This document shows positions 1-41,585 of a DNA stretch of 64,000 bases, in pieces; position 1 is the stretch's first letter, and each line of letters opens with the position of its first letter. Origin of the DNA: Ecdyonurus torrentis (Eukaryota > Arthropoda > Insecta > Ephemeroptera > Heptageniidae); contig CASGGR010000026.1 of assembly GCA_949318235.1 (NCBI GenBank), forward strand, positions 493,744-557,743. The letters are read 5' to 3'. Under the pieces are notes generated by a model that did no database searches, was not told where the DNA came from, and saw only the letters and a program-made list of their open reading frames with translations. Position numbers and translations under genes: made by a program.

Positions 1-96
1 CATTCCTATTATAATCGAAACCACTCTAAAATGAAAATAATAATATTAAAAATAGAGTAAATTTAAGTAAAAAAACATTACTCTTACACACACACT

Positions 97-141
<45 letters not shown>

Positions 142-3100
142 AAATACATTGCAAATTAATTTCCACCATAAAAATGATAAAAAGTCATATTTATGTTACA
201 AAATGATGGATTAAAATCTTGATTGTCTTCACTATACTTATTTTAATAAACATTTTATAAATTTTTTAGTAACATGAATGACACGTATAAAGGAGAGTAA
301 TATTTTTAATATTTCGTAATAAAAATAAGATTAAAGATGAGACCAATCTAATACACAATCCAAAATACCTGATCATTGTGACCCATTCTTTCTTATGAGT
401 ATTTACTACTGCTTTGATGTTTCCTCCTTGAGCAAAAGCACTTCTGATTACTGCAGCAGCTTTACTGAACAGCTCCCTGTCCGAAGTGTTAAATTGCTCT
501 TTCAATGCGCCCGCTATTGCTTCAGTAGCCATGCTGTGTGAAGCGTCATAGGCCTTTTGTGTAACATTTTTGGAGTTATCTTTGGATACATTAGATTGAT
601 ACGAATTCAGTGCTTTAATTGCGACAGTTATCGAGTTGTAAAGATCCACATCATTTTCATTAAATCCCTTAAACGCTTCACAGTAGTGAAGATATTTTTT
701 AAGCCCTTGAACGTAGTTCATTAAGCTTTCACTGGCCATCTGCAACACATTTTTAAAATAAAGTCAAGTTACTTGCCTAATTAGTTACTTAAAAATAGTA
801 TACAAGATTCTTACTGAAGTTTTCTTTAATTCTTCAAAATATTCGCGAATGTTAGTAAACTCGCATATTACATTGATGTACTTTATCTCAGCATCAGTAT
901 CTAATGGGTTGATATTATGTTTGTTACACAAGTACATGGCCATTTTACTCATGATTGATAAGTATGTCTTGCGAGCTGATTCAGACACCTTACACATATT
1001 TTTTAAATAATGTTCTTCATAGTTAGTGTAAAGTTTACATGTTACAGGAAGTTTTTGATCTAATCCCTGTAAAGCTATTAAAGATTTGACCTTAGAACTG
1101 TGATGCATTGTGTTGCTGGTATCAGCAGAAGCATCATCATCATCATCATCATCTTCTTCATCATCATCATCATTATTATTATCATCTGACTCATCTTCTT
1201 CATTTGAATCTGTGACTTCAACTGCTTCAGTGGACAACTTTTCAAACACGCATAGCTTTTCATTCCATTGTAATTCATTTAATTCGTCACATAATATACC
1301 TCCCATTGATTTCAGCATTTGGTAACCTGAAAAAAAAAATACTGAATAAAAACAATATAGATTATAAAATAATTTATTATAATATACTATATCATAATAT
1401 AATATAATATAATATAATATAATATAATATAATATAATATAATATAATATAATATAATATAATATAATATAATATAATATAATATAATATAATATAATAT
1501 AATATAATATAATATAATATAATAAAATATAATATAAAATAATATAACATATTATAATATAATATGTTACAATACATTATACTATAATATATATTTAAGA
1601 AATTTCCGAATTTATTGTGCATATAGTAGAATACGAAATAACTTTAATTAGAAATATTTCTTCTTTTATTTTAAATTTAATATATTTATAAATTTATACT
1701 AACATGTTTTCCGAGTTTCTTCTGTTTGCCAAGCTGATCCTACTGCTTTTTGCAACAAATTCAAGGGAATGAATGGCGTTCCCGAATAGAAATTTCTTCT
1801 CGTTTCACAAATCACATTTTGAAATTTCGTCTCATCAAATACTTGATTTCTCATGAAATATTTATAGTGATGTTTTCGCATGTGTTGCCTAAGGTCGCCT
1901 CTTTTACGAATACCACAGATCAAACACATTATGCTAGCTTTATTTACTGATATTTCATCTGAGCTTTCAGATTTAATTTTTCCGTCATTGTTTTCATTCT
2001 TTCGCAGTAGTTTTAAAGCGGTTTGGTTTTCATCACTTTTTATAATATCATCTTCAGATTCATTTGAGTCCATTTCAGAGCTAGGCGGTGCAAAATCTAA
2101 TACTTCATTTATCTCTTTTTGAGATAATCTTCTCTTTATTTTAGATGCTACGTCTGGTGTATTTCTGAGTTTTACTTGATCAAAATCCTGTTGACCACTG
2201 TGAACATTTTCTTCTTTCTTTTTCTTCTCTTGTTCTTCTTGAGTAGAATCATCTAAACTTTGAGATTTAATTTTGTTGTCATTATTTTTATTCTTTAGCA
2301 GTAGTTTCAAACCGGTAAAGTTTACATAACTTTTTTTGTCATCATCATCAGATTCATTTGAGTTACTTTCAGAGCTCGGCGGTTCAAAATCAAACTCTTC
2401 ATCACCCTCTTTAAACGATAATTTCCTTTTCTTGTTCTTAACAAACTTGTCATTTTCCCATTTTTTCCCGTCCGTTGGGCCAACTGGCGTAAAGTTTGTA
2501 TTGGTTAAGTCTGATGCAATTTCAAATTCTTCTTGATCAATATCCTCCTGACCACGTTCAACATTTTTTTCGCTCTTTCTTTCTTCTTGTTCTACTTGAT
2601 CAAATATATCTTCTTCTCGGTCAACCTTTTTTTCTTTTTTTCTAATTTTCTTTTTTTTATTATTTGAACTAAGACATAAATCTTCATTGGATTCATCTAA
2701 CATTTCTTGTAATAATTCTACTTCATGATGGTCAATACTAACTTCGTCTATGACTACTTTTGCTTCTTTTTCTTGTCTCTCAGTTTTACCCAAATTGTTT
2801 TCTAATTGCTGAGATTTTTTTTCTTCTGCGTTTTCGAGCACTACTTGATGCAAATCCTCTTCACCACTGTCAATTTTTTTTTGTCTCTTTCTGTCTTCTT
2901 GTTCTTCTTGTTTTTTTGGTTCTTCTTGCTCTTCATGTTGTTCTTGCTCAGATATTTCTTCCTCTCGGTCAACTTTTTTTTGTTTTCTTCTCATTTTTTT
3001 ATTTGTATTTTTTGAACTAACACATAACTCGTCATTTGATTCATCTAACATTTCTTGTAATAATTCTACTTCATGATGGTCAATACTAACTTCATCTATG

Positions 3101-3531
3101 ACTACTTTTGCTTTTTTTTTTCGTTTTTTAGTTTTACCCAAATTGTTATCTAATTGATGAGATTTTTTTTCTTCTGCGTTTTCCAGGGCTACATGATCGA
3201 AATCATCGTCACCACTGTCAAATTTTTTTTCACCTTTTCTGTCTTTTTGTTCTTCTTGTTGTATTGGTTCTTCTTGTTCTTCTTGGTCTACTTGATCAAT
3301 AATCTCTTCATCTGGGTCAATATTTTTTTCTGTCTTCCTTCTTTTTTTCTTCTTTTTATTTGCTTTTGAACGAAGTTTGACATTGGAATCAGCTGTCCTT
3401 ACATGCAATAAATCTGCTTCATCTTTGTCTTTTTTTGAATTTTTGTTTTTTTTTCTTTTTCGCGAATTAGAATTTGTTGTGGCTTCCAAAGTAGCTTGTG
3501 CCAATAATTGATCTAAAGCCTTTTTGCTCAT
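1..3531 (-). CDS. Tyrosine recombinase-SET mobile gene, copy 1 (5' part, cut by window edge)
   Basis: Four exons are visible on the minus strand: 3531-1704 (from the ATG), 1326-815, 739-369 and 25-1 (partial). All junctions are GT-AG and keep frame: phase 1 after exon 1, phase 0 after exon 2, phase 2 after exon 3. Exon 1 is an open 608-codon stretch, very rich in Lys, Glu and Asp, with internal duplications (a block containing DHHEVELLQEMLDESN occurs twice). It ends in a C2H2-type finger, CLICGIRKRGDLRQHMRKHH. Exon 2 has an Asp/Asn/Glu run followed by a probable helical domain. Exon 3 begins MASESLMNYV and ends at MIR. The recombinase and SET exons known from copy 2 would lie left of the window. 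A 3' splice site (tttctacag) sits just before the ATG, so an upstream exon is likely. The chromatin-targeting role of the finger and acidic tract is inference. Confidence 0.7.
100..137. repeat. (TA)n microsatellite in intron 3 of gene copy 1
   Basis: A short CA-rich and TA dinucleotide run sits between exons 3 and 4. It matches the longer run at 24353-24437 in copy 2. Confidence 0.85.
1139..1192. repeat. Asp-codon repeat in exon 2, copy 1
   Basis: A run of cat/atc trinucleotides, interrupted by ctt and att, codes on the minus strand for Asp with a few Glu and Asn. It is shorter than the matching run in copy 2 and is followed by an Ala-Ser-Ala interruption. It lies inside the coding exon. Confidence 0.75.
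1381..1600. repeat. (AATAT)n microsatellite in intron 1/2 of gene copy 1
   Basis: A nearly pure pentanucleotide array of more than 25 units with decayed ends lies between exons 1 and 2. On the plus strand the unit is A-rich (AATAT). Confidence 0.9.
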
Positions 3532-10480: not shown

Positions 10481-10551
10481 GCATGCCATGGTTACATCTC
10501 CTTACAACCATGTTATAAGTGTAGATGTAAGGAGATTTTTCCATGACATGC
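10481..10551. repeat. Hairpin in array unit (fourth)
   Basis: This is the same inverted repeat with a point change in each arm (ggttac; ccatgacatgc). Confidence 0.7.
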
Positions 10552-12071: not shown

Positions 12072-12140
12072 GCATGCCATGGTGACATCTCCTTACAACA
12101 ATGTTATAAGTGTAGATGTAAGGAGAATTTACCATGGCAT
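12072..12140. repeat. Hairpin in array unit (fifth)
   Basis: This is the same inverted repeat; the right end has decayed to ggcataagc. Confidence 0.65.
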
Positions 12141-13391
12141 AAGCAATATGTTTAAGCAAATATTAATAAAAATTTTTTACAATAAAAGCTCCCTGGTAAA
12201 GTCATAATATTTTTTAAATTTATTGGTGGAATCTTCTTCCCCTACATGTTCTTTATTTATTTTAAATTGGTTACGTAACGGTGTATGTTTTTCTATTACT
12301 ATGGTGATGCATATTAGTTCCCAATAGAGGCCCCGTATACACTGCAGATTATAACAATCCAAATATTGGGAACTACTTATCAGGAGAATTTTTATTCATA
12401 CATATATATAATTATACGCTTACGCATTCATGCATCGATAAACATTCTACTATCATCATTTTATTCCGAAGTAAATTTTAGGAGCATTGATAAGAATTTG
12501 TGATAAGTATTTAGATAAAGATTTATAATTAAGGACTGGGAACCACTCCCAACCAAATTAATAAAGATATTAGGAACTATTTGTCGGGAAAATAATATAT
12601 ACCTAAATATAAATATTTAATTACACGCTAACATTCATTTAACGATGAAAACATTGCATATGTTGCATATGTTTAAAGCGTTTCTTCTACAGAAACAGTA
12701 TATAATGAAGTTTGATAGAGATGGTGGAAAAAAAATACAAAAAAAGCTTTCTTTTTGTTTTAAATGTTACAGAAATTTTGAAATGTAGCTTTAAATAACT
12801 AATAAAAAAATACTCGTTTTTGAATCAAAAAGTTTACATGAAATGTTAAATAAATTATTTAAACAAAAACATTGAAAAAACAATTATTTTGCTACAGTTG
12901 TTTCCAATATTCATTATTTGACCCAAAAAAAAAGAAGACAAAAAAAAGGCAAACTAAACATCAATTATGAAGAATAATAGTATTACTACATCCGGGACAA
13001 ATATTTTTTAAATTTATATTTTGACCAAAATAAACATTAACATTATTTAAACAACATAACAGAATAATTAATCTGCTTAATTAGAACTTGAAATTCAATA
13101 ATTGAGCAAGAAAAAAAGAAAAAAATTACATCTTGATCAAATATTTTTTTAAAATAATAATTTCACCAAATCAATTATTTTTATATTAAATTAAATAACA
13201 ATAAAAAATAAGTATCTCTGTCAATTGAAACTTTAAATTCAGAAATAAGGTAATAAATAGACAGACATAAGATATTATTAAAAATTGATAAATTTATTAT
13301 TAAAGTTAAAAGCTTTCTAGTATATATGCATATTAACAGATTTATATAAATTTTATTTTAATTTCCTTTTTTTAATTTTTATATATATTTA

Positions 13392-15907: not shown

Positions 15908-18900
15908 CCTGTTGCACAACAACGTTCTAGGAACGTTCGTTTAACGTTTTTTTGGGTACAAAAATTGATTCCACTTAGGTTCCGTTGAACGGTCTATGTA
16001 CCTAAATAGTGTCTCAAAAAGGTACCTTTATAGAACCGTTCAAATTGCAACCGTCTTGAACTTCGTGGAACCATTATTATATTTGGCAGGCTTGCAGATT
16101 GTTCCTTGCAGATTTTGAGCTTTTTATGACTTAACCTTAGTATTCCCTATTTAGTTTCATACTTTGCACTCAATGTGACTCCTTTTTCTCAATCGGAACA
16201 GAAGTGGAACCAACCTTGTACTTTCAGGGAACCATTATATTTATAACAATTAACCCGTGATTGTTATCATTGGTAGGTGGGTACGTATATAGTCATAATA
16301 TTGTTCTCGGACATTACAAAAACCACCTGCAATACAGTATAGATAACAAAGCAGTACAGTCCTCAAGCCCCTGCTTCCAGTGATAGGTGGGTACGTGTAG
16401 TCATTATACTAGCCTCGGACATCACCAAAACCATCTGCAATACATTAATAGATACCATTGCAGTATAGTCCTGAAGTCCCTGCTATCAATGGTAGTTGGG
16501 TACATGTAGTCATTATATTAGCCTCGGACATCACCAAAACCATCTGCAATACATTAATAGATACCATTGCAGTATAGTCCTCAAGTCCCTGCTATCAATG
16601 GTAGTTGGGTACATGTAGTCATTATATTAGTCTCGGACATCACCAAAACCGCTATCAATGGTAGTTGGGTACATGTAGTCATTATATTAGCCTCGGACAT
16701 CACCAAAACCTTCTGCAATACATTAGATGCCATTGCAGTATAGTCCTGAAGTCCCTGCTATCAGTGATACGTGGGTACGTGTAGTCATTATACTTACCTC
16801 GGACATCACCAAAACCATCTGCAATACATTAGATACCATTGCAGTATAGTCCTGAAGTCCCTGCTATCAATGGTAGTTGGGTACATGTAGTCATTATATT
16901 AGCCTCGGACATCATCAAAACCATCTGCAATACATTAGATAACATTGCAGTAAAGTCCTGAAGTCCCTGCTATCAGTGATAGGTGGGTACGTGTAGTCAT
17001 TATACTAACCTCGGACATCACCAAAACCTTCTGCAATACATTAGATGCTATTGCAGTACAGTCCTCAAGTCCCTGCTATCAGTGATAGGTGGGTACATGT
17101 AGTCATTATATTAGCCTCGGACATCACCAAAACCATCTGCAATACATTAGATAACATTGCAGTATAGTCCTGAAGTCCCTGCTAGCAGTTGTGCATGGTT
17201 ACGTAAAGTCATAACATTGCTCCGGACATCAGAAATATACCCTACGTATAAATCCAGTGCTGTACTGGTGTTGTTGATACCATTAGTCATATGACCCCTC
17301 GGCAAAGATGTAGCATAATGGCACTGCAAAATACAAAAAATTACTTGATAAAAATAATGCTGCAGGTATAACCCATACTTTACTTGAGTATGTATATGAA
17401 GATTCTCGAGCCAGGGCACAGTCAGTTCAGGTCAGGTGTATTCCTATCATCATCATCAAAGGCGGCTAGCTGACCTAAAACATAAAGTAAACATATTCAT
17501 CAGTAAAACGGATAAAATGCATGGTTTTTATTTTTATGTTACAGTTTAATTTTACCCCGTTTGGACACAATTATTATGATAATTTTTTACCTTTATAGCA
17601 TATTGCGGTTATACATTTATCAATTATAAAATATATTAACATACCTTTACGTTTAAACGCTGACTAATTATCCTTTACCTAAATTTGTAGCAAGTATTAT
17701 ACCATATACATTTGAGATTCATTGCTGAAAAATTTTACAAAATACATAATATGTTCCTTTCAAACAAAAATATGTATTTAATACCTTCAATCAAAGTTCA
17801 GATATATATTTAATATCAAAAAATACAAAAACTAAATAAACAAACACGAACATTTACATACATAGAATAACATCACAAATCAGTTTTAAATAAAAGTAGG
17901 TCAATACGTACCGGTATACCTGTAATATATAGTAAACAAACACTCAAAATCACACAGTAAATCTGTACTCACAATTTCACAAAAAAATAAAAAATAACGT
18001 CAAAATATATAAAGCGCTACGAACCTTAAGAAATCTGAAACAAAACACAGATTACAATGCACAAAATTCATATATAAAACATATACATTTATACAGGTCA
18101 TAGAAAAATAATATGTACAAAACATACAGTTTAGGAAGCAAAATATTACGTATATCACTTCAAATTAACATGATACACACTTAAAATATATCACTTCATA
18201 AAATAAAAAAGACAGTTACTTACTTACATAAGGTAAAACTTACAAAAGTGACCTCAAAATTTCATAAAATCTTCCTCGCGGCAGCTTATAAAAAAGTTTG
18301 CATCGCCAAATCGTCCATACTTTTCCTCGACAGCAAATGCAGAGCAAACGTTCTCAATGTCATGAAACAAAAAACAAAGAGCTCATTAACAACTTGATAT
18401 ATTTACATCATGCAGAACAATAGTTTGTTTCAATTTACCTGTCGTAATTCGGAAAGATAAAGAAAAAAACAGCATCTCATGTCATGTATGTACAGTACAC
18501 TGGTGCAATGTTGACACTCGGCGGCAATGACAATTCCGAGCAAATGGCGGTGGTGCTACCGTCCGTGACGTCACAAAATAAATATTTACCGCAAAATTTT
18601 TTAAAACTATTTTACAAATGTGGATTTTTATAGAAAGTTTTATAATTAAAAGTATAATTTATGTGCAAAAATATTATATAACATTTTTTTTTTAAATAAC
18701 CACTGAAAGCATTGATAGATAAAAAAAATTACATAATATTTTGTATTTTTATTGAATTAATTTGCATGTAAAATATTGATATTTTTAGATCAAAGTCACT
18801 ATAAAAGTCTTAATTGACAATTTTTATTAACATCAAAACTGTATGTTATTACTTGTGGTAAAAATAAAGGCAATTATCCAAAGTTAAAAACCTTCGTTCC

Positions 18901-20560: not shown

Positions 20561-21330
20561 GCTCCTAAATTATAACGGTCCACTTATTATTAAACTCAAT
20601 TCGACTACCACCGTGTACATTGTATGGTAATTTATCGTCTGATTGTATCATACACTTTCGCATTTTTACTTCAATGAAAACAGTAAACTCACGGTAGCAT
20701 GTACCATGGCAAATTCGAAGATGAAATGTGAAGAGCATTTAAACCATTTTTATTAGTACATAAATGAATGATTGAAGGCACGCTGCTTACCAGATAGTAA
20801 TAAAAAAGAAACATAAAGTGATAAAATGAAAAAAAAAGACAATGAATGAAGTTAAACAAGAAGAAAAAATGAAAAATAAAATCAAAAGTAATTTTATTCA
20901 AAATTTCTTGCTTTTTCTCTGTATAATTGTATTTATTAAGCATGAGTATTACAAGCCAATGTTTCATATAATTGTGCATTATATGACTTCATACATACTA
21001 TGACTTCACTTCATATATCGATAAAAATAGTAAACTCACTGCATCTTTTTTCGAAGCAAATTGGAAGAGGAGATTTAAAGATATTTAGCGACAGTATTTT
21101 AGTAACAGTAAAAATATACAACATTTTAAAGAGAAAAACTTCACGACTAAAGCTGAAGCACATTTATGTACACTGATAATATACAAACATTTAAAAATGT
21201 GGCATGTACTAATTTTATATACCAACATATGCAATATCATGAAGTTTCTATCATCAAAATACAATTTTGTTGTCTCCAATATCCTCACAAATTAAGTAAA
21301 CAAAAATAAATAGCATAAAAAAATAATAAT
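20561..21330. other. AT-rich spacer without a recognisable gene
   Basis: It contains fragments of the inverted repeat units (atcgataaaaatagtaaactcac near 21018, also near 20670). Short frames here have no family signature. Confidence 0.5.
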
Positions 21331-22020
21331 TATAATACAACATTAGTCGAATAGAATTTTAAATATAATATTTGACCAAATTACGTAAAACCAAATATAA
21401 ACGAATTATAAAATGGATTATTTACATAAATCATCATAATAATTTTTGATCCATTAGAACTTGATATCCATTACAGAACCAAAAATTAACAAAATAAAAA
21501 AAAAGAATATAACATTAGTCGAATAGAATTTTAAATTTAATATTTGACTAAATTACGTAAAACCAAATATAAAAAAATTATAAAATAAATACTTTACATA
21601 AATCAGCATACTAATTTTTGGTCAATTAGAACTTGAAATTCATTAAGTAACCAAAAATAAACAGAAAAAAAAAGGAAACAATAATATAACCATAGTCGAA
21701 TAAAATTTTAAATTCAATATTTGACCAAATTACATACTACCAATATGAACAAATTATAAAATAAATACTTAACATAAATCATCAAATTAATTTTTGGTTC
21801 ATTAGAACTTGAAATCCATTAAGTAACCAAAAATAAACAGAATAAAAAAAAAAGAATAATATAACATTACGCAAATAGAATTTTAAATTCAATATTCGAC
21901 CAACTTACGTATATGCAAATATGAAAAATTTATAAAATGGATAATTTTACATAAATTATTATATTTAACCTTAGTCCATTTTAACTAAAGAAAATAATAT
22001 AAAAAGATCAAGAAAAATTT
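21330..22020. repeat. Tandem repeat of about 175 bp, four units, next to the gene 2 3' end
   Basis: The block tagtcgaatagaattttaaat recurs near 21345, 21516, 21692 and 21866. Each is followed by atttgacca...ttataaaatggat and gaacttgaaatccatta. It begins about 160 bases after the gene 2 stop codon. Confidence 0.75.
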
Positions 22021-22177: not shown

Positions 22178-23206
22178 TTATGTTATCTGCATATTTTTAC
22201 AATTTTTGTTTCCACAATTACATTTGAATGTTTGCCTATCACCAAGCGATACAAAGATTTCTTCACCACTTCTGATTTCTCTGATAGTTTGTACACCGAC
22301 CTTATTTTTCGATACGTCCAAGAGCTATAACATGATTATTATATTAGTTGCATGGCAGTTTTCTTATAAAGTAATGTTAAGATATTTACCTTACAGTTTG
22401 GAGCACAACTGTAATTCACAAATGCTATGGGACCGAGCACCAGAACAGGTCCAACAATATCATTTACAGTCATGACAGCAAAATCTCTTCTTGTAGCACA
22501 CAAAAATAGAACATCATCGTCTGAGAGTTTGACTGTACTTCCGTTCAGATTTGGAATAATAAAGTCCTTCTGCCTAAAAAAAGCACAATTATTTTGATAG
22601 TATATACTTATATATGTATATTTATATACATATCTGTGTGTGTGTGTGTTTGTGTGTATGTAGCATTAAAACAAATCTTCACTTACAAATCTGTGCATGC
22701 TGTAACTCCTGCACTATCAGCAACATCGTTTTCATATTGCAAACAACTTTTAATTTCCACAGTATTTTCCTCAATAAGTGATTTGTAGTTCAAGACCTGC
22801 GAATTTATATAAGAAATTGTATCTCAGATATGAAAATTTTGGTAAATTTTGCTATTTACTTACGTGTTTCAAAAGTCGTTCTTCATTTCTTTCATCAAGC
22901 GCAATAGGCAAAACCAACTTTTTGACTGCATAATCGATCTCTTTTTCGTATTCACTGTCTAGTTTGCCATTTATAATACTAATTGATATATTTTCTGTGG
23001 TTTCCAAGGAACTGTTGTTAACAAGGAATATTACCTTAATACATGATGCAATCATTCAAGTTATTTTTACCTTACCGTAAATGCATCTTGTGTGTATGAA
23101 GTCTCAAATTTGTGTCCAACAGGAATTTCGTAGCAAAATCGTCGAAGAAAGAGAGAGAAAAAATTGAAATTTTTCTTCGACTCACGTCTTCATTGATTGA
23201 GGTTTT
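22178..23206 (-). CDS. Exons 7-11 of gene copy 2: SUV4-20 (KMT5B/C)-like SET domain, probably catalytically altered
   Basis: Exon 7 (23206-23076) encodes DDFATKFLLDTNLRLHTHKM, matching the N-terminal helical block of SUV4-20 enzymes, which have a D-D-x-A-T...THKM pattern. Exons 8-9 are the more variable middle. Exon 10 (22573-22390) has DFAVMTVNDIVGPVLVLG followed by GPIAFVNYSCAPNCK, the counterpart of the family's GPAAFINHDCxPNCK substrate/cofactor motif. Exon 11 (22324-22178) has GVQTIREIRSGEEIFVSLGD and the terminal FKCNCGNKNCKN cysteines, then TAA. SUV4-20 enzymes methylate histone H4 Lys20. Two canonical residues are changed: His of the NH pair is Tyr, and the catalytic Tyr before GD is missing (SLGD for YYGD-like). 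The domain may therefore bind rather than methylate; that is inference. Confidence 0.7.
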
Positions 23207-24353
23207 CTTATACACATACAATAATTTCAATATTTTTATCAAGTAAATAAATTAATAATAAATAAACAAATTCAGATTTTTTTAAAGCATATTATATTAC
23301 CTTTTCTGAGACCCAAATATCTTCCACCTCTTTGATGATTATCTTAGTTTGTCCACCATGCTCTGAAGCGAGTTTATTAACTTTGTCAACTGGGAAGCAT
23401 TGACTTTTTTCTAATTTTCTTGCTATGTTAACTGCTATTGCAATATTATTTGTTGACAACCACTTTATTCTGATTAAATTAATATAATTTTCGTTAAGTT
23501 TTGTGCCGTATGCTTTATAAATCAATTCAATAGCTGCTTCTGTTGATGGGAATTCCTTATCTCTAGGGTTACCAAATAATTTTTCCAGGTTGCAGCAAGA
23601 TTTGTCAAATACTGTACTTACTGAATAGTAAAAAAAATCAAAAATTTATTAGTCAACATTTGAATATTTGAAAACATAATACTTATGTACCCAATCTTTC
23701 AACAGTTTACCTTGTTCAGTGTTGAGTACAGTCTCCCTGAGCATTGACGCAGCATCAATTGAAGGTAACGTGTAACTTCTTTTTGCTACAATTCCAGTAT
23801 GCGCCAGATAATCAGCACAATTTTGTCGAGAACTTTCATCCATCATATTTTTAGTATATAACGATTTCCTTGAGGTCGTTATTGTTAATATGGCTTTACC
23901 TTGATTCTTTTGGTAGCGTGTTAAATGCTGAGAAATTTTTTTTTCAGGGTTGCATTTGCTGTTTATAAGAAAATTTTTAATTTCTACTGGAACTTGTTTT
24001 CTTAACATGTAATATCTGTAAATAAGGAAGAAAATCGTTTCAAAAGGAGTGAACAATTGCTCAGTAACTCAGTTTTTACTTACTCATTCAGTATTTTGTA
24101 TTCATCAGGAAGTAAAGCAACCGACACTGGTTTTGTGGTTGATGTTTTGTGCTCTACAATGTGAAAAACATATTTTCCATCTTTTGCTGATTTACCTTCT
24201 TCAAACTCTGATATTTTCATATGAGATAAAGCACTCTGTCTCTGGTAGTTTTGCATTCCCATTATAATCGTAATCACTCTAAAATGAAAATAATAATATC
24301 AAAAATAGAGTAAAAATAAGTAACAAAAACATTGCTCTTACACTCACACACAC

Positions 24354-24426
<73 letters not shown>

Positions 24427-25417
24427 TATATATAACAAAATACATTGCAAATTAATTTCCACCATAAAAATGATAAAAAGTCATATTTATGTTACAAAAT
24501 GATGGATGAAAAACTTGATTGTATTCACTATACTTATTTTGAGAAAATTTTTATAAAATTGTCAGTAACATGAATGACATGTATAAAGGAAAGTAATATT
24601 TTTAATATTTCGTAATAAAAATAACATTAAAGATGAGACGAATATAATACACAATCCAAAATACCTGATCATTGTGACCCATTCTTTTTTATGGGTATTT
24701 ATTATTGCTTTGATGTTTCCTCCTTCAGCAAAAGCATTTCTGATTACATCAGCAGCTTTGCCGAACAGTTCCTTGTCCGCAGTGTTGAATTGCTCTTTCA
24801 ATGCGCTCGCTATTTCTTCATTAGCCATGATTTGTGAAGCGTTATAGGCCTTTTGTGCAACATCTTTGGAGATATCTTTGGATACATTAGATTGATACGA
24901 ATTCAGGGTTCTAATTGCAACATTAATGGCGTTGTAAAGATCCACATCATTTTTATTAAAACCCTTATACGTTTCACAGTAGTGAAGATATTTTTTATGT
25001 TCTTTCACGTAGTTCATTAAGCTTTCACTGGCCATCTGCAACACATATTAAAAATAAAGTTAAGGTAATTGCTTATATAGTTACTTAAAAAATAGTATAC
25101 AAATTTCTTACTGAACATTTCTTTAATTCTTCAAAATATTCACGAACGTTAGTAAACTCGCATATTACATTGATGTACTTTATCTCAGCATCAGTATCTA
25201 ATGGGTTGATATTATGTTTGTTACACAAGAACATGGCCATTTTACTCATGATTGATAAGTATGTCTTGCGAGCTGATTCAGACACTTTACTCATATTTTT
25301 TAAATAATGTTCTACATAGTTAGTGTAAAGTTTACATGTTACAGGAAGTTTTTCATCTAATCCCTGCGAAGCGATTAGGGCTTTGACCGTAGAACTGTGA
25401 TGCATTGTTTTGCTTGT

Positions 25418-25465
<48 letters not shown>

Positions 25466-27572
25466 TTCTTCATCATCATCATCATTATTATTATCATCTG
25501 ACTCATCTTCTTCATTTGAATCTGTGACTTCAAATGCTTCAGTGGATAACTTTTCAAACACGCATAGCTTTTCATTCCAATGTAATTCATTTAATTCGTC
25601 ACATAATATACCTCCAATTGATTTCAGCATTTGATAACCTTAAAGAAAAAATTACTGAATAAAAATAATTTAGATTATATTATAATATATTATGTTAAAT
25701 TATATTATAATATAATATATTATGTTATATTATATAATATTATATTATATTATATTATATTATATTATATTATATTATATTATATTATATTATATTATAT
25801 TATATTATATTATATTATATTATATTATATTATATTATATTATATTATATTATATTATATTATATTATATTATATTATATTATATTATATTATATTATAT
25901 ATTTTAGAAATTACTAATTTGAATGTGCATAGTATAATACGAAATTACTTTAATTTCAAATTATTTCTTCTTTTTTTTAATTAAATATATTTATTAAATT
26001 ATACTCACATGTTTTCCGAGTTTGTGCTATTTGCCAATCTGATCCTACTGCTTTTTGCAACAAATTCAAGGGAATGAATGGCGTTCCTAAATAGAAATGT
26101 CTTCTCGTTTCATAAATCACATTTTGAAACTTTGTCACATCAAATACTTGATTTTTCATAAAATATTTAATGTGCTGATTTCGAATGTGTTGCCTAATGT
26201 CGCCTCTTTTACGAACACCACAGATCAAACACATTATTCTAGCTTTATTTACTGCTTTTTCATCTTTACTTTGAGGTCTAACTTTGTCGTCATATTTTTT
26301 ATTCTTTCGCAGTCGTTTCAAAGCGGTATTGCTTACATCACTTTTTTTATTATCATCATCACATTTGTTTGAGTCTGTTTCAGAGCTTGTTGGTACATAA
26401 TCTATGTCATCATCACTCTTTTCATGAGATAATTGATTTTTCTTGTTCTTTTCAATCATGCTTTCCATTATTTTATTCCAGCCTGGTGGGCCAGCTGGCG
26501 TAAAGTTTTTGTGGGTATTATCCAAAGTTTTGTTTAGTTTTTTGGATTCTAAGTCAGGTGTACTGCCGAGTTCTAATTGACTAATATCCTCCTGATCACT
26601 GTCAACATTTTCTGCACTCTTTCTCTTCTCTTGTTCTTCTTGATCAGAATCACTTAAACTTTGAGGTTTCATGTCTTTTTCATTTTTTTCATTCTTTCGC
26701 AGTAGTTTTAAAGTGGTTTGGTTTTCATCACTTTTTTTATCATCATCATCAGAATTATTTGAGTGTTTTTCAGAGCTTGGTGAAACTTCATCAATCACTT
26801 TTTGAGAAATTTTTTCCTTCTTGTTCATAACAAACTTGTTCTTTTTCCATTTTTTTTCACCTGGTGTGCCAGCTGGCATACATTTTGAATGGGTATTATC
26901 TAAAGTTTTATTTAATTTTTTTAGATGCTAAGTCTGGTGCATTTCCGAGTTTTACTTGATCATTATCTAACTGACCACTGTCAACATTTTCTTCTCTCTT
27001 TCTCTCTTCTTGTTCAATTATATCTTTGTCTAAGTCAACATTTTTATCTTTTTTTCTTATTTTCCTTTTTTTACTATTTGAACTATGACATAAATCGTCA
27101 TCGGATTCATCTAACATTTCTTGTGATAATTCTACTTCATGATGATCATTAATAACTTTATCTATGACTTCTTTTGCTTTTATTTTTCGTTTTTTAGTTT
27201 TACCAAAATTGTTATCTAATTCTTGAAATTTTTTATCTTCTGCGTTTTCGAGTTCTAATTGATCAAAACCCTCTCTCTTTCTGTCTTCTTGTCCTTCTTT
27301 TTGTTTTGGTTCTTCTTGATGATCTTGTTCTTCTTCTTGATCAAAAATCTCTTGGTCAACATTTTTTTCTCTCTTACTTCTTTTTTTCTGCTTTTTATTT
27401 GCTTTTGAACGTATTTTGACATTGATATCAGCTGCGTTTCCATGTAATACATCTGCTGCATCTTTATTTTTTTTTGAATGAATTTTTTTTTTCTTTTTTG
27501 GGAATTAGAAGTTGTTGTGCCTTCCAACCTAGCTTGAGCCAATAATTGATCTATCAAAGCGTTATTGCTCAT
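22178..27572 (-). CDS. Tyrosine recombinase-SET fusion gene, copy 2 (11-exon model, two frameshifts in exon 1)
   Basis: Exons on the minus strand: 27572-26009, 25638-25112, 25035-24665, 24278-24084, 24015-23711, 23620-23301, 23206-23076, 23011-22864, 22796-22687, 22573-22390 and 22324-22178 (TAA). Every intron is GT-AG and every junction keeps frame, so recombinase and SET exons form one reading frame of about 1.3-1.4 kb-codon scale, with no stop after exon 1. Predicted order: Lys/Glu-rich region, C2H2 finger, Asp run, helical N-domain, tyrosine recombinase, linker, SUV4-20-like SET, terminal Cys cluster. Crypton elements encode a DUF3504-type tyrosine recombinase that moves DNA without a DDE transposase. 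A fused SET domain is not part of the family as I know it. Exon 1 carries two frameshifts in poly-A runs, which may be decay or sequencing error. Two adjacent genes instead of one is the main alternative; the phase-0 join of exons 6 and 7 argues against it. Confidence 0.68.
23301..23620 (-). CDS. Exon 6 of gene copy 2: linker between recombinase and SET domains
   Basis: The acceptor is tattcag at 23621 and the donor GAAAAG|GTAATAT at 23300. The exon completes a Val codon with exon 5 and encodes about 106 residues, including STVFDKSCCNLEKLFGN and ending EDIWVSEK in phase 0. I recognise no domain. It has a Cys-Cys pair and mixed charged helices. Its only clear role is to connect the recombinase, whose last recognisable block is at the end of exon 5, to exon 7. 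Confidence 0.55.
23711..25638 (-). CDS. Exons 2-5 of gene copy 2: N-domain and tyrosine recombinase catalytic core
   Basis: Exon 2 (25638-25112) holds an uninterrupted run of Asp codons and then a probable helical region; exon 3 (25035-24665) is also predominantly helical. Such a region normally forms the core-binding domain of these recombinases. Exon 4 (24278-24084) contains QRQSALSHMKISEF, which places the first catalytic Arg, and HIVEHKTSTTKPVSVAL, the beta-strand Lys region. Exon 5 (24015-23711) contains ITTSRKSLYT (second Arg; the usual His of HxxR is Thr) and LAHTGIVAKRSYTLPS, with the conserved His and, nine residues later, the nucleophilic Tyr. The LPS after the Tyr and the downstream NTEQGK are typical of animal DUF3504/Crypton-like proteins. 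All four core positions apart from the HxxR His are present, so activity is plausible. The subfamily assignment is from memory of motifs. Confidence 0.72.
24353..24437. repeat. (TA)n microsatellite in intron 3 of gene copy 2
   Basis: A CA-rich start is followed by about 80 bases of TA dinucleotides. It is intronic, at the same place as in copy 1 but longer. Confidence 0.88.
25420..25494. repeat. Expanded Asp-codon repeat in exon 2, copy 2
   Basis: An almost pure (ATC)n trinucleotide run gives about 15 consecutive Asp residues before a Glu pair, longer than in copy 1. The reading frame is kept, so this is a length variant of an acidic linker. Confidence 0.8.
25681..25903. repeat. (ATATT)n microsatellite in the same intron of gene copy 2
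   Basis: This array is in the matching intron, but its plus-strand unit is ATATT, the reverse complement of the copy 1 unit, even though the two genes have the same orientation. The reading frames it creates are products of the repeat and are not genes. Confidence 0.9.
26009..27572 (-). pseudogene. Exon 1 of gene copy 2: charged region and C2H2 finger, two homopolymer frameshifts
   Basis: The exon starts MSNNALIDQLLAQARLEG, parallel to MSKKALDQLLAQATLEA of copy 1, and ends in the same finger (CLICGVRKRGDIRQHIRNQH). The frame is lost in an A10 run near 27485-27494 and regained with a one-base shift. A second shift lies in an A-run near 26922-26930. Between these the correct frame is fully open and matches copy 1 residue for residue over long stretches. 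Both breaks sit in homopolymers, so assembly error cannot be excluded. A 3' splice site (cctacag) lies about 12 bases before the ATG, as in copy 1. The donor is ACAT|GTGAGT at 26009. Confidence 0.65.
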
Positions 27573-28433
27573 TTTGATTACTGCCTGTAGGAATAGACAC
27601 AAGAGTACGATTTAAATAAAACTTGGAAAAAAAGTACAAAACAAGGAATTGCAAATGAAAAGTTACGAACAAAACAATGTAGCTTTAAATTACTTATGCG
27701 CCAAAAATATACGCATGTTCAAATCCAAAATTTTATATGAAATGTTACATAAATTTTTTAAACAACAATGAAAAAAAAAACATGCTAAACTAGAACTTAA
27801 TATTCAATACCTTACCAAGAAGAAGAAGAAATTAATTTTATAATATTTTGATGGCAATTTTTTGAATTAAATGTGGTTTCGGTAATTTAAATAAGGTAAC
27901 TAACATGCAAATAATTATATAATTAGTAAGCATTTATAAATTATTATTTAAATTAAAAGCTCCCTGGCATAGATATAATATTTTTATATTTTTTTATTAA
28001 TGTCTCTATGCCCTACATGTTCTTTATTCAATATAATAGGTTATATAACCAACATTATTTGAAAACATTTATATTTATACTCAATGTCGAAAAAAATTAA
28101 AGATTGCGTTGATGGTTTTAGTGCTTCTCGTTTGTACACTATTACATGATGGTACATGTATAAACATATGTGTTAAGCAAATATACAAAATATATAAAAA
28201 TTAATAAAATTATGTTTTAAAGTAAAAGCTCCCTAGCAAAGGCATAATATTTTTTAAATTTCTTGGTAGAATCTTCTTCCTGTACATGTTTTTTGATTAT
28301 TTTAAAATGTTTACATAACGTTGTATGTTTTTCCATTTCTATGGTGACGCATATTAGTTTCCAATAGAGACCCAGTATACAGTGCCGATTATAACAATCA
28401 AAATATTAGGAACTATTGATCGGGAGAACCTTT

Positions 28434-28610
<177 letters not shown>

Positions 28611-28846
28611 CGCTTTCGGATTAATACATCGATAAAAACATTGAACTAATATCATTGAATTCCAAAGTAAATTTGAAAATAATTGTGATAGTTATTTAGT
28701 CAAAGAGTTATAAGTGCGGCCCAGGAACCACTCCCGACTATATCAGTCCAGATATAAACAACTATTTGTCGGGAAAAATATATACATAAATATAAATATG
28801 TAATTAAACACTATTGCATTCATTAAACGATGAAAACATTGCATAT

Positions 28847-28980
28847 CAGGTCTTCCGGATAGAAATGTCGTTGTAGAGTTTTTTTTGTGATGCGACCTTG
28901 AATCTTACCTGTTCTTTTCATAGAGCTCATAGTCGCATGGCAAAAAAACTCTACAACGACATTTCTATCCGGAAGAACTG
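28847..28980. mobile_element. 134-bp MITE with 4-bp target duplication
   Basis: The ends CAGGTCTTCCGGATAGAAAT and the inverted ATTTCTATCCGGAAGAACTG form arms of about 39 bases (one mismatch near the tip). It is flanked by atat on both sides (28843-28846 and 28981-28984). The sister units near 30646 and 32406 read gcatatgttg without it. Confidence 0.88.
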
Positions 28981-30335
28981 ATATGTTGGTATATCAAATG
29001 AGAACATGTTATACTTTATTAAATTCAAAATATTTCAATTTTTCAACATTTGCCAGTTTTCTTTCAACCGTTTCCTTTATAATAACGGAATACAATATAT
29101 TTTGCTAGAAATAGTGAAAAAAACAATAGAAAAAGCATTCTTTTTGCTTTAAAAAGATTACAGAAATTATTAAATGTAGCTTTAAATGATTAATACAAAA
29201 TCCTCGTGTTCAAATCAGAAAGCTCTACATTAAGTAATAAATAAATTACTTTAACAACAAAAAAAATTTATTTTGCTATACTAGATCTCGATTTTTAATA
29301 ATTAAAAAAAAAAAGGAAGACAAAAAAAAAAAGGTAAAATATAACATTAGTATGGAGAATAATAGCATTACAAAATCTGGCACAATTATTATATTAAATA
29401 TATTATTTGACCACATAAACATAAATACTATGTAAACAACATTAAAAAATAATTAACTTGGTTAATTAGAACTTGAAATTCATTAATTGACCAAGAAAAA
29501 GAAGAAAAAAAATACATATTGGTCAAATATCTTTTTAAAATAATTATTTTACCAAAACAATTATTATTATTTTTTAATAAAAAACATTAAAAAATTAATT
29601 ATCTTCGTAAATAAGAACTAAAAATTCATTTATAAAGCAAGAAATAGAACAGACAAAAAATAATAATTATAATAAAAATTGATAAATTTATTATAAAAAT
29701 CAGAAGGTTTCTAGTATAGGCATATTATTTTATAATATTTTGATGCCAATTATTTGGCTTTAATGTTGTTTCAGTAATTTAAATAAATTAACTAACATGC
29801 TAATAATAATAATATTAGTAAGCATTGATTAAAATAATATATAAATTAAAAGCTCTCTGGTATAAGCATAATATATATATATATTTTTTTTTGTGAAATC
29901 TTCTTGCCCTACATGTTCCTAATTGAATATAAATTGGTTATATAACTAAGATTAATTAAAAATAATAATGTTAATTAATACTCAAAGCCAGAAAAATTTA
30001 AAGAATGAGTTCATGGTTTCCAAGCATCTCGTTTGTACACTATTGCATGATGGTATATGTATAAAAATATGTGTTAAGCAAATATACAAAATATATAAAA
30101 TTTTCTAAAATTATTTTTTAAAGTAAAAGCTCACTAGTAAAGGCATAATATTTTTAAAATTTCTTGGTAGAATTTTCTTCCCCTACATATTCATTAATTA
30201 TTTTAAATTGTTTACATAACGATGTATGTTTTTCGATTTCAATGGTGATGCATATTAGTTCCCAATAGAGGCCCAGTATACAGTGCCGATTATAACAATC
30301 AAAATATTAGGAACTATTGATCGGGAGAATCTTTA

Positions 30336-30336
<1 letters not shown>

Positions 30337-30397
<61 letters not shown>

Positions 30398-30400
30398 ATT
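30337..30400. repeat. (TA)n tract in second unit of array 2
   Basis: About 60 bases of TA dinucleotides at the same unit position as 28437. Confidence 0.85.
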
Positions 30401-31527
30401 ATACGCTTTCGGATTAATACATCAATAAAAACAGTGAACTTATATCATTGAATTCCAAAGTAAATTTGAAAAGAGATTTGAAAAGAATTGTGATAGTTAT
30501 TTAGTCAAAGAGCTATAAGTGCGGCCCAGGAACCACTCCCGACTATATCAGTCCAGATATAAACAACTATTTGTCGGGAAAAAATATATACATAAATATA
30601 AATATGTAATTAGACACTATTGCATTCATTAACCGATGAAAACATTGCATATGTTGTTATATCAAATGAGGACATGCCATACTTTATTAAATTCAAAATA
30701 TTTCAATTTTTCAACATTTGCCAGTTTTCTTTCAACTGTTTTCTTTATAATAACGGAATATAATATATTTTGCTAGAAATAGTGAAAAAAACAATTGAAA
30801 AAGCATTCTTTTTGCTTAAAAAATATTACAGAAATTATTAAATGTAGCTATAAATGACTAATACAAAATCCTCGTGTTCAAATCAGAAAGCTCTACATTA
30901 AGTAATAAATAAATTTCTTAAACAACTTTAAAAAAATTTTGCTATACTAGATCTCGATTTTCAATAATTAAAAAAAAAAAAGGAAGACAAAAAAAAAAGG
31001 AAAATATAACATTAGTATGGAGAATAATAGCATTACAAAATCTGGCACAATTATTATATTAAATATATTATTTGACCAAATAAACATAAATACTATGTAA
31101 ACAACATTAAAAAATAATTAACTTGGTTAATTAGAACTTGAAATTCATTAATTGACCAAGAAAAAAGAAAAAATACATATTGGTCAAATATATTTTTAAA
31201 ATAATCATTTTACCAAAACAATTATTATTATTTTTTAATAAAAAAGATTAAAAAATTAATTATCTTCGTAAATAAGAACTAAAAATTCATTTATAAAGCA
31301 AGAAATAGAACAGACAAGAAATAATAATTATAAAAAAATTGATAAATTTATTATAAAAATCAGAAGGTTTCTAGTATAGGCATATTATTTTACAATATTT
31401 TGATAACAATTATTTGGATTTAATGTTGTCACAGTAATTTAAATAAATTAACTAACATGCTAATAAAAATAATATTAGTGATCATTGATTAAAATAATAT
31501 ATAAATTAAAAGCTCTCTGGTATAAGC

Positions 31528-31528
<1 letters not shown>

Positions 31529-31565
<37 letters not shown>
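31529..31565. repeat. (TA)n tract, second site within the unit
   Basis: A short TA run after tataagcata. The sister unit near 29869 has a shorter run. Confidence 0.8.
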
Positions 31566-31567
<2 letters not shown>

Positions 31568-31983
31568 GACATCTTCTTGCCCTAAATGTTCCTAATTGAA
31601 TATAAATTGGTTATATAACTAAGATTAATTAAAAATAATAATGTTAAATAATACTCAAAGCCAGAAAAATTTAAAGAATGAGTTCATGGTTTCCAAGCAT
31701 CTCGTTTGTACACTATTGCATGATGGTATATGTATTAAATATAAAATATTATAAAATTATTTTTTATAGTAAAAGCTCCCTAGTAAAGGCATAATATTTT
31801 TAACATTTCTTGGTACAATTTCCTTCCCCTACATATTCTTTAATTATTTTAAATTGTTTACATAACGTTGTATGTTTTTCGATTTCAATGGTGATGCATA
31901 TTAGTTCCCAATAGAGGCCTAGTATCCAGTGCTGATTATAACAATCAAAATATTAGGAACTATTGATCGGGAGAATCTTTATT

Positions 31984-32164
<181 letters not shown>

Positions 32165-33480
32165 GCTTTCGGATTAATACATCGATAAAAACATTGAACT
32201 AATATCATTGAATTCTAAAGTAAAAAAAAAAAGAGATTTGAAAAGAATTGTGATAGTTATTTAGTCAAAGAGCTATAAGTGCGGCGCAGTAACCACTCCC
32301 GACTATATCAGTCCAGATATAAACAACTATATGTCGGGAAAAAATATATACATAAATATAAATATGTAATTAGGCACTATTGCATTCATTAAACGATGTA
32401 ATCATTGCATATGTTGGTATATCAAATGAGAACATGCCATACTTTATTAAATTCAAAATATTTTAATTTTTTAACGTTTGCCAGTTATCTTTCAACCGCT
32501 TCCTTTATAATAACGTAATATAATATATTTTGCTGAAATAGTGAAAAAAACAACAGAAAAAGCATTCTTTTTGCTTAAAAAAGATTACAGAAATTATTAA
32601 ATGTAGCTATAAATGACTTATACAAAATCCTCGTGTTCAAATCAGAAAGCTCTACATTAGGTAATAAATAAATAATTTAAAAAACATTAAAAAAACAATT
32701 ATTATGCTATTCTAGATCTTGATTTTCAATAATTAAAAAAAACAAGAAGACCAAAAAAGAAAGGAAAACATAACAAAAGTATGGAGAATAATAGCATTAG
32801 AAAATCTGGCTCAATTATTGTATCTCAAGAATGTGAGAAAGATATAAATAAATAACAAAAATTTAACTGATGTCGCTAAGAAACATTAGCCACAAATGTT
32901 TGTCATTATGCTGAGACGCTGAGCAGTGTTATTCATTACTCCAGTATGGTGTGTACCTATATATTTACCAATATCCAATAAAATTATTTTTTTAAAGTAA
33001 AAGCTTCCTAGTAAAGGCATAATATTTTTAAAATTTCTTTGTGGAATCTTCTTCCCCTACATGTTCTTTAATTATTTTAAATTGGTTACATAACGTTGTA
33101 TGTTTTTCCATTTCTATGGTGATGCATATAAGTTCTTAATAAAGGCCCCGTATAAAGTGCCGATTATAACAATCTATATTGGGAACTATTGATCGTGACA
33201 ATATTGTTTCATATACATATATATAATTATACGCTTTTGCATTCATACTCGATAAAAACATTCAACTAACATCATTTAATTCCGAGGTAAATTTTAAGAA
33301 GAGCTTGGAAAATAATTTGTGTTATTTATTTATTTAAAGAGTTATAAGTGTGGCCGGAAACAACTCCCGACCATATTAGTCCAGACATTGGGAACTATAA
33401 TTATATTGGGAAAAATTTATACCTTAATATTTATTATTTACATGTTAAACAACAATAAAAATACATTATAGTTGTTAATT

Positions 33481-34397
33481 AGAATTTGAAATTTACTATT
33501 CAACGAAGAAAATAAAGAAACGTCATAAAAAATAATTATAATTATGAAAATTAATAAATTTATTATCAAAATTATAAGCTTTCTAGTATTGAGATATTAT
33601 TTTAATATATGTTTATGGCATTTTTTTGTTCATTATAATCTCTAAGGTATTTTACTAAGTTTTATTACATGCAAGTAAGAACATGCAGGTAAGAACATGT
33701 AAGTAACAATATTACTAAGAATAGAGAAGGAACAGTGCTGCTCAATTACAGACCTCTTAGTATTGGGCCAAATTAAACATGAATAATATTTAAACAGTGA
33801 AAAATAATAAACTTGGTCAATTAAAACTTGAAACACATTAATTGACCAAGAAAAAGAAGCCAAAAAATGACAGTTTGGTTAAATATTATTTTAAATTTAT
33901 TATTTGACCAAAATAATCTTTATTGTATTAACTAAACTTCAATAAAAAATTATTATCTTTGTCAATTAGAACTTGAAATTCATTATTAAACCAAGAAAAA
34001 GTAGAGACATTATAAATTTTTTTATTATAATAATTAAAATTTATTATTTAAATTAAAAGCATTCTATTATAGGCATATTTATTTTAAAGTATGTGGATGG
34101 CAATATTTTGTTCATTATATTCAGTAATTTTATTAATTTTCGTTACGTGTAATAAAGAATATAAGTCAGAATTAAGACGGACCAGGGCAATGTAAATAAA
34201 TGAATGCAAGTATATGCATGTGGTCATGCATATCGTTTTATATACGTATGTACAATAAAACTAGCAAATTATTGTTAAACTATTTACAGTCCATTACTGA
34301 ATGAGGCGTGCGTTTGGCCTTATTCCAAAGAAAAAAAATCAGATTTCTTTCAATTTTATTGTATTTTTATTAATATTGTTATTTTTTTCATATTTTT
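33481..34397. other. Decayed array sequence up to block B2
   Basis: Blocks such as attagaacttgaaattcatta recur at irregular spacing (near 33824 and 33966), so these are degenerate unit fragments. I see no gene. Confidence 0.5.
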
Positions 34398-34830: not shown

Positions 34831-36360
34831 CAGTAAATACCTTGCACAAATTCCCTTCAAAACCAGTTTTCTAATTTGCTACTGTTCGTTCGAGACACCT
34901 TGACTTTACAGTTTTTATCAAAGTACACATGCAGACAATATGAAAAATATCCTAATTGAGAATCATTTATATTTATATACATAATAGTTCTAAAAAAGCC
35001 ATAAAACTTTATTTTATAATTTTTTATGTAATCAATAAATTATATATTTAATAACTAATAATTTCTTTTTTTTAAAAAAAACTAATTAATATAGAAAATT
35101 TTAATAGTTTTAAATTGCATTAAATTTTTTTAATATTTTTTATTTCCCAATTAACAGTTCCTAATGTTTGGACTTCTATGGTCGGGAGTGTTCCTTGGGT
35201 TCATAAGGGAACATGTACGGCAAGATGATTCATTTAAGAAATTTTAAAAATATTATGCTTATAAGAGGGAGCTTTTATATCCAAAAAATTAATTATTCTA
35301 ATTAAATTGTATAATATTATTATTTTCATGATTTGTAACTTTTTTAAATTACTCAAAGAACATTATCGGCAAGAAATTTTAATGTTAAATTAAAAAAAAA
35401 AGAACATATTTTTTTCTACACATACCATCACATCATATTGTAAGAAAAAAAAAACATGCATTTTCCGATATTTTGTTTATCATTATGGTTAATTGGGTCC
35501 CTAATTTACTTTGCTTAGGTATTGTTGGCTTAAATTCAAAATTATTAAATATTTAGCAAAAGTATATAATTAGAAACACTTGTAAGAGTTTTATATTGCA
35601 TTATCTCTTTTTTTTTATATATTTTTTTTATTTCCCGATAAATAGTTCCCCATATCTGGACTGATAAATTAAAAAGTGATCCAGGGGATCTGTAAAGGGA
35701 ATCCTGAATTTTATTTTAATAATTTCAAATCTACAAAAATACAATATAACTTAAAGTTTAATTAAAAAAAAATGACAAAATTTTTAAGTTAACCGACCTC
35801 AAGAATAAAGGGACGTTTTCTCTAGAAAAATGCACAAATTTTATAATTGATTTCCCAATACATAAAAACGTCCCAAGTGTCTTTCAGATTGTTGGTTTTC
35901 AAACTTCCAAAAGTTTGAAAATAAATAGGTAATGTACATATTTGATCCTTTTCATAAAACAAAAATTAGTTTCTGCATAAAAGTATATTTTAATGCTAGT
36001 CATTCTATAACGTCTCATTTGACGTTCCCATTCCAAGCTCTAATCAGATGATAAAGGCGTCTGATAAGCCGTTCCATCCCAGACTCACATCTTTTCAGAC
36101 GTATAACATGTCTTATTAGACGTCCCATTTCCATTCCAAAAGCAAGCTTCCCAGACGTCTCATTAGACTCTTCTTTCTCAAACTTGCAAAAAAAAAAAAA
36201 AAAAAAAATACATAATTGCACCTTTTCAAAGTAAAGAATATGAAAAACGTACCTAATGTTTTACTATATTTTGACACTTATAATTTTTTTGAAAAAACAA
36301 ACACAATATTTACATTATTGCATATTTCAAAGTACAAAAATATATTTCACCTTAATAAGC
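34831..36360. repeat. Inverted-orientation repeat units right of B2
   Basis: The order matches that right of B1: tttgctactgttcg...cgagacacctt near 34876, agttcctaatgtttgga near 35155, aagaggga near 35267, and an uninterrupted cattatgg near 35479. Around 36010-36180 short irregular repeats of agacgt(c)tcatt/cccatt occur that I cannot assign. I see no gene. Confidence 0.65.
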
Positions 36361-41527: not shown

Positions 41528-41585
41528 ACTTCGCAAGCCGTACACGTTCACTTAATTCATCCTTCTATATCTATTTTCCTTTACA

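Follow-up and report, generated by a model that had tools for sequence, protein, structure and literature searches.

SETMAR fuses a SET domain to a mariner transposase, and the PRDM proteins combine C2H2 zinc-finger arrays with a SET-like PR domain; both PRDM and KRAB zinc-finger genes vary their DNA-binding part. Here we describe a gene of the mayfly Ecdyonurus torrentis, found in a 64,000-nucleotide stretch of DNA (C37:493744-557743; the window), in which a recombinase-like front end is joined to a SET module of the SUV4-20 type, that of the histone H4 lysine 20 (H4K20) methyltransferases KMT5B and KMT5C. Like SETMAR, the gene joins a histone-methyltransferase module to a part that may be transposon-derived, but the class of SET domain, the class of transposon and the order of the domains are all different. 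With KMT5B and KMT5C it shares the N-terminal part (DDFATK..THKM) and the SET domain, which align with its C-terminal 240 residues; it differs from them in having the recombinase-like front end and in several residues of the SET domain.

For the front end, the closest described systems are the Crypton recombinase domains (DUF3504) domesticated in host genes such as KCTD1, KIAA1958, ZMYM2-4, QRICH1 and WOC (Kojima and Jurka, 2011; PMC3212892). DNA or protein binding has been proposed for such domains, several of the genes are transcriptional regulators, and WOC is also found at telomeres (PMC3212892). The gene described here is similar in that a putative recombinase domain lies in a host gene beside finger and regulatory domains. 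However, the DUF3504 genes lack most of the catalytic tetrad (PMC3212892), whereas the copy in the window (copy A) and a paralogue on contig C20 keep a putative R-K-R-H-Y set, and the DUF3504 profile finds no match here. The animal Cryptons of the CryptonA and CryptonI groups, a possible source of the recombinase-like part, are described without a C-terminal domain (PMC3212892), whereas here exon 6 and the SET exons follow.

The term "SET domain" has no occurrence in the main text of PMC3212892, and no recombinase-SET or Crypton-SET fusion turned up in literature searches, as judged mostly by titles and the openings of abstracts. In the parts of PMC9406493 and PMC10380595 that were covered, the three relevant terms co-occur only in separate contexts. 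The main text of PMC5459927, which surveyed the SET genes of 147 arthropods, has no instance of recombinase, fusion, transpos-, Suv4-20, SUV420 or KMT5; in a table of that survey, each genus has between 3 and 31 SET genes classed as "Other", meaning arthropod-specific or unclassified, and relatives of the fused gene could be hidden among these. The component parts are of known kinds, and their combination is, to our knowledge, new. If the recombinase origin is true, the gene would be a further case of host recruitment of a transposon recombinase and, as far as we know, the first in which one is joined to a SUV4-20 module.

Structure of the fused gene

Copy A lies on the minus strand of a window that is AT-rich (GC 26%), in an assembly of 503 Mb and 117 contigs. 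In the spliced model, 11 exons with the 3' end at 22178 form one open frame of 1118 residues, counted from a chosen point inside exon 1; 10/10 introns are GT-AG, with phases 1,0,2,2,1,0,2,0,2,0. An initial annotation of the window had joined ten of these exons in frame through GT-AG introns (E2, 25638-25112, to E11, 22324-22178); we recovered all ten at these positions and added exon 1 upstream. The motifs by which it had recognized the two halves are all present in copy A: QRQSALSHMK, ITTSRKS and LAHTGIVAKRSY on the recombinase side, and DDFATK...THKM, LGPIAFVNYSCAPNCK and GEEIFVSLGD on the SUV4-20 side. Exon 1 encodes a lysine-rich and acidic low-complexity stretch and then one C2H2-like finger (CLICG...H...H), for which no Pfam finger match over the cut-off was obtained in copies B, C20 or D. 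Immediately upstream of the ATG of copy A is an acceptor-like sequence, CTACAG, common to B and C20; copy D has TTACAG at this place.

Paralogues in the same genome carry the evidence for the fusion. A protein search with spliced copy A returned at least 55 exon matches, all of them on C37 or C20; counts of this kind are lower bounds. The paralogue on C20, matched at C20:377383-383250 on the minus strand, has all the exons in the same order. In a spliced alignment with copy A, 535/868 residues are identical (61.6%), 10/10 introns are at the same positions and in the same phases, and no stop codon was found; a 3-nt pseudo-exon placed by the aligner inside intron 1 was disregarded. From the finger of exon 1 onward, copy B is identical to copy A at 787/885 residues, with the same 10 introns and no stop. 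Exon 1 is open from the ATG in both B and C20; B terminates with TAA, and C20 with a stop after the last aligned residues.

The join itself is conserved. Intron 5, which separates the recombinase-like part from the downstream exons, has a length of 90 nt in A, B, C20 and F, and intron 6 measures 94, 89, 84 and 79 nt, respectively; both introns have an identical place and phase in the four copies. From the beginning of exon 6 up to THKM, A and B have no methionine and C20 has a single one; the SET half thus lacks a conserved start codon. When neutral change was simulated over half of the A-C20 divergence, the 500 runs gave a mean of 30 stops and a minimum of 16, against none observed. The degree of identity of the C20 paralogue, its shared introns, its lack of stops and a ratio of non-synonymous to synonymous change (dN/dS) of 0.56 argue that the fusion is real and old. 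On the genomic sequence, we regard a single fused reading frame as established in C20 and B; the fusion, which the initial annotation had offered as a splice-model inference, is upheld.

The SET module and the recombinase-like half

The C-terminal 240 residues form a SUV4-20 SET module. The Pfam SET profile is matched over its cut-off by copy A (E 2.4e-7) and by C20 (9e-9). Copy A also matches KMT5B in the PDB, with an E-value of 8.3e-16 over residues 18-222, which span the N-terminal part and the SET domain, and 55/189 aligned residues are identical. With a four-member profile (A, B, C20 and C), KMT5B was matched at 1e-30, and the best 10 of 60 PDB rows were all SUV4-20 proteins, ahead of other SET classes.

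Several motifs are changed in the fused copies. The YG motif, YYG in KMT5B and FYG in SUV420H2, reads NYG in the zinc-finger copies C, E and G, SLG in A and B, and SFG in C20 and F; its tyrosine is kept in 3/3 zinc-finger copies and is L or F in 4/4 fused copies. The VMY tyrosine is T in all four fused copies, Y in C and G, and R in E. PNCK is present in 4/4 fused copies, and NHxC is NHSC in B, C20 and F and NYSC in A only. These residues suggest that the SET domain could methylate in the zinc-finger branch and is weakened in the recombinase-like branch. For the window copy, the replaced YG tyrosine and two frame changes in exon 1 make activity doubtful.

The canonical SUV4-20 gene of the genome was not found at the 8 loci read, out of 34 SET matches, or in stretches around 12 further places. 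Beyond the cluster, a tblastn search of stretches L001-L013 with the exons of copy A found nothing but short matches, in L001 and L008; among the stretches from L044 on, the SET modules of C20 and C matched only the C20 gene itself (L044) and copy G (L047). Elsewhere in the genome there are SET reading frames that we take to be Ash1-like and Su(var)3-9-like. Several others, of about 330 residues (in L049, L050 and further places), are presumably SMYD-like. An expansion of SmydA in arthropods has been described (PMC5459927).

In the front end, a putative catalytic set was assigned by eye: the box I R (QRQ), K (HKT), R (TTSRK), H (LAHT) and Y (RSY or KNY), in the order R ... K ... R ... H ... 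Y that is expected of a tyrosine recombinase. K168, R238, H261 and Y270 (C20 numbering) are identical in 3/3 complete copies (A, B and C20); at the box I position, A and C20 retain the R, whereas B has a K. In copy F, exon 4 is degraded and the R, H and Y are missing, and copy D is without box II. By this motif reading, the N-terminal half is likely to be a tyrosine recombinase.

Searches gave no support for the family. Neither A nor C20 had a Pfam match to DUF3504, to an integrase or to another recombinase profile. For the recombinase-like part there was no PDB match by profile, no integrase in PHROGs or NCBIfam, and no match in 50,697 phage records; neither this part nor the SET domain had a match among viral contigs. 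The protein-database searches gave no match, not even to ordinary SUV4-20 proteins, so that the absence of relatives from this collection, uninformative for animal proteins, means little. A Pfam match of C20 E3-E5 to a bacterial Ig domain (2.7e-4) was under the cut-off and was taken as chance. Profile-profile comparison with Cre and with lambda Int gave 0.13% each, in a test in which the positive control (Cre-Int) gave 0.83% and the negative control (SET-Cre) 0.54%, and which hence had no power; 3 of 160 viral loci were used, nearly all of the 160 being copies of two proteins. AlphaFold on exon 5 alone gave a model unusable for a recombinase fold (pLDDT 42.8). The exon 6 domain likewise had no Pfam match (the C20 counterpart was scanned), and its AlphaFold model, made from exon 6 alone, was unusable (pLDDT 47.8). 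Thus, of the two profile matches that the initial annotation had proposed as a check, the one to SET was obtained and the one to DUF3504 was not; its Crypton-type recombinase survives as a motif pattern that fits by eye, with every profile and database test negative.

Possibly, then, the N-terminal half is a genuine and conserved region for DNA binding but no tyrosine recombinase, its motif matches being due to chance, as the lack of recombinase matches in Pfam, PHROGs, NCBIfam, the PDB, the phage records and the protein database would suggest. We consider this a minority possibility. The order of the assigned residues fits a recombinase, DUF3504-type domains are themselves diverged, and the profile-profile test, which scored even the known pair of Cre and lambda Int so low, is uninformative.

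A gene family with different front ends

We found four fused copies, a lower bound: A, B and F on C37, all three inside about 67 kb, and C20. One of them, F, is degraded, and its E1-E3 were not found. C37 is 1.9 Mb long and was read in part (448000-557743, or 110 kb, plus 620-623 kb), and the cluster may be larger. In copy D, homologues of E1-E6 are present and no SET was found downstream; the E6 domain can therefore follow a recombinase-like part without a SET. The spliced aligner used for copies F and D was custom-written, and its artefacts included 1-nt (F) and 7-nt (D) introns and spurious small exons; only long matching exons were taken as evidence.

In three further genes on C37 (C, E and G), a single exon of 1413-1419 nt encodes both a C2H2 array and the E6 domain; four SET exons follow, and no stop was seen in any of the three. 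In copy C, the one scanned, both C2H2 and SET matches were over the Pfam cut-off. Their introns have phases 0,0,2,0 and lie at the sites of E6|E7, E8|E9, E9|E10 and E10|E11, and the equivalents of E9 and E10 are 110 and 184 nt long. The shared introns and exon lengths indicate that the SET modules of both branches descend, together with the E6 domain, from one ancestor, and that it is the front end that differs. Since the C2H2 array and the linker lie in one uninterrupted exon, the linker would there be translated from the upstream partner. Like the PRDM proteins, these three genes combine a C2H2 array with a SET domain, but theirs is of the SUV4-20 type and C-terminal. We take the members of the family to be host chromatin proteins whose front ends, which would bind DNA, are exchangeable.

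Within this family, we think it somewhat probable that the fused gene is a host gene whose front end targets the SUV4-20 module to chosen sites. Each member would carry a C-terminal E6 domain and SUV4-20 SET module behind a DNA-binding front end, which is a C2H2-like finger plus a recombinase-like domain in four copies (one degraded) and a C2H2 array in the three other genes of the same contig. The front end would bind a particular DNA sequence, probably in repeats, and bring the SUV4-20 module to the nucleosomes there. For the recombinase-like branch we would expect neither active recombination nor strong methylation; its protein may instead be a tethered reader or scaffold, or an H4K20 enzyme of weak activity. 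Together with the zinc-finger sisters, this suggests that locus-specific H4K20 chromatin proteins evolve by exchange of the front end on a fixed SET module. If true, how SUV4-20 reaches particular repeats becomes directly testable.

We estimated dN/dS by the Nei-Gojobori method with bootstrap, using copies A, B and C20 and leaving out F and D. Between A and C20 the ratio was 0.56 overall (bootstrap 0.46-0.68), 0.44 for exons 4-5 (0.28-0.71) and 0.49 for the SET part (0.33-0.72), indicating that amino-acid change is selected against in both halves.

A number of observations, however, weigh against the targeting of a SUV4-20 module by a DNA-binding front end. The A-C20 bootstrap ranges include 1 for E1 (0.35-1.93) and for E6 (0.42-1.34). 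The A-B comparison is near neutral, with dN 0.051 and dS 0.075 and ratios of 1.43 for exons 4-5 and 0.91 for SET. The introns of A and C20 are 68-87% similar over aligned columns, compared with 73-81% for exons 2-11. The frame of copy A changes twice within exon 1, in runs of A at about 27.5 kb and 26.92 kb, and neither change is present in B, C20 or D. The near-neutral A-B comparison, these frame changes and the similarity of introns to exons suggest that selection in the family is moderate, and copy A may be decaying or mis-assembled. In addition, the gene model comes from genomic DNA, no profile matched the recombinase part, DNA binding by the front end is a prediction, and the proposed weakening of the SET module supposes that the YG tyrosine is the catalytic residue of SET domains.

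The initial annotation had seen the gene as part of a mobile unit, duplicated with its repeat environment. The duplication holds, and A-B homology extends past the gene into the upstream arrays of about 1.6 kb units. The mobile unit fares less well. It would be a Crypton-like element whose recombinase gene captured a SUV4-20 SET, the recombinase moving the unit and the SET steering or protecting it in chromatin. The K, R, H and Y identical in the three complete copies, and the box I R of A and C20, would be in line with such an element. So would the limits of the C20-C37 homology: when 22 kb of C20 was compared with C37:448000-557743, homology ran from about C20:375960 to 384530, some 8.5 kb made up of the gene and its 3' tandem array, as expected of a moved unit, with one further 124-nt match in the flank. 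A mobile Crypton would, however, be expected to have many dispersed copies, and the exon matches gave at least four fused copies in 503 Mb, on two contigs, three of them in one cluster. Moreover, the putative catalytic set is broken in B (box I K), in F and in D, the A-B duplication includes the flanking repeats, and 11 exons would be unusual for an animal Crypton. The C20 homology limits would suit a moved unit, whereas the low copy number and the clustering suit gene duplication; together with the lost recombinase residues, these have the look of a host gene that underwent gene and segmental duplication. We regard the mobile element as unlikely, and no evidence was found for the suggestion that insertion or excision by the recombinase is tied to chromatin state.

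A bolder reading, to which we give only a slim chance, is that copies such as C20, in which R, K, R, H and Y are kept, encode a chromatin-guided recombinase still cutting or joining DNA at repeats, tethered by its own SUV4-20 module to a particular chromatin state, in a family whose branches swap front ends on one H4K20 module.

A similarly slim chance goes to a family of decaying pseudogenes, in which copy A would be a defunct duplicate derived from a B-like gene. The two frame changes in A, the near-neutral A-B comparison and the degraded state of F (one stop codon, and a jump of 1 nt in exon 10) would all fit. Yet B and C20 have uninterrupted frames from ATG to stop, the frame of A stays open through exons 2-11, and dN/dS between A and C20 falls below 1; the frame changes of A, sitting in A-runs, could be assembly errors. 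Finally, two adjacent genes (exons 1-5 recombinase-like, exons 6-11 SUV4-20-like) joined only by the splice model are barely credible: an unspliced intron 5 would terminate the first protein of A 20 residues past exon 5, and copy D has exons 1-6 without a SET, but introns 5 and 6 are conserved in all four fused copies, no conserved start codon precedes THKM, and in C, E and G the exon 6 domain shares a single exon with the C2H2 array. A host gene with a targeting front end is our preferred reading.

Coordinates and neighbouring repeats

Table 1. Exons of the fused copies in the window, related copies on C37 and the 3' array. Positions are those of the window unless preceded by C37.
Feature	Position	Strand	Content
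Copy A exon 1	26009..27572	-	ATG 27572-27570; based on the model and on in-frame counterparts in B, C20 and D
Copy A exon 2	25112..25638	-	Acidic run and start of putative core-binding (SAM-like) part; GT-AG, phase 1 in; intron position and phase matched in B and C20
Copy A exon 3	24665..25035	-	Precedes putative recombinase catalytic domain
Copy A exon 4	24084..24278	-	Putative box I (QRQSAL) and HKTSTTKP
Copy A exon 5	23711..24015	-	Putative box II (ITTSRK) and LAHT...RSY tyrosine motif
Copy A exon 6	23301..23620	-	Linker domain of ~106 residues, common to the zinc-finger SUV4-20 genes
Copy A exon 7	23076..23206	-	SUV4-20 module begins (DDFATKFLLD...THKM)
Copy A exon 8	22864..23011	-	
Copy A exon 9	22687..22796	-	110 nt, equal length in the zinc-finger SUV4-20 genes
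Copy A exon 10	22390..22573	-	184 nt, as in the zinc-finger SUV4-20 genes; core of SET, with LGPIAFVNYSCAPNCK (B, C20 and F read NHSC)
Copy A exon 11	22178..22324	-	SET end (EEIFVSLGD), CxCx4C post-SET-like cluster, stop codon
AT-rich tandem array	21291..21963		Period ~172; just 3' of copy A; homologous sequence after the gene in B, F and C20
Copy B exon 1	1704..3531	-	ATG at 3531; frame intact
Copy B exon 2	815..1326	-	
Copy B exon 3	369..739	-	
Copy B exon 4	1..25	-	First 25 nt; the rest and exons 5-11 lie left of the window, C37:493743-491676
Copy C	C37:487085-484318	-	C2H2 array, E6 domain, SUV4-20 SET
Copy D	C37:479538-475381	-	E1-E6 homologues; 191/644 identical
Copy E	C37:450415-453135	+	C2H2 array, E6 domain, SUV4-20 SET
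Copy F	C37:454689-457029	+	Only E4-E11; a single stop, and a jump of 1 nt in exon 10
Copy G	C37:620067-622737	+	C2H2 array, E6 domain, SUV4-20 SET

Between exons 4 and 5 of copy F lies an extra exon-8-like piece in reverse orientation (C37:455087-454941, minus strand), a sign of local rearrangement. The arrays of AT-rich units of about 1.6 kb occupy window positions 4224-13335 and 28208-34173, one upstream of each gene copy, and are about 69-87% alike between arrays. An array of 106-109 bp units is found at 16265-17324, and a tandem array of units of about 734 bp, about 96% alike, at 36260-45342. Lastly, at 52935-63000, nested long inverted repeats (268 nt, 96%; 238 nt, 98%) surround a 2.4 kb tandem duplication, whose matched pieces are 95-100% identical and which has a recent look.

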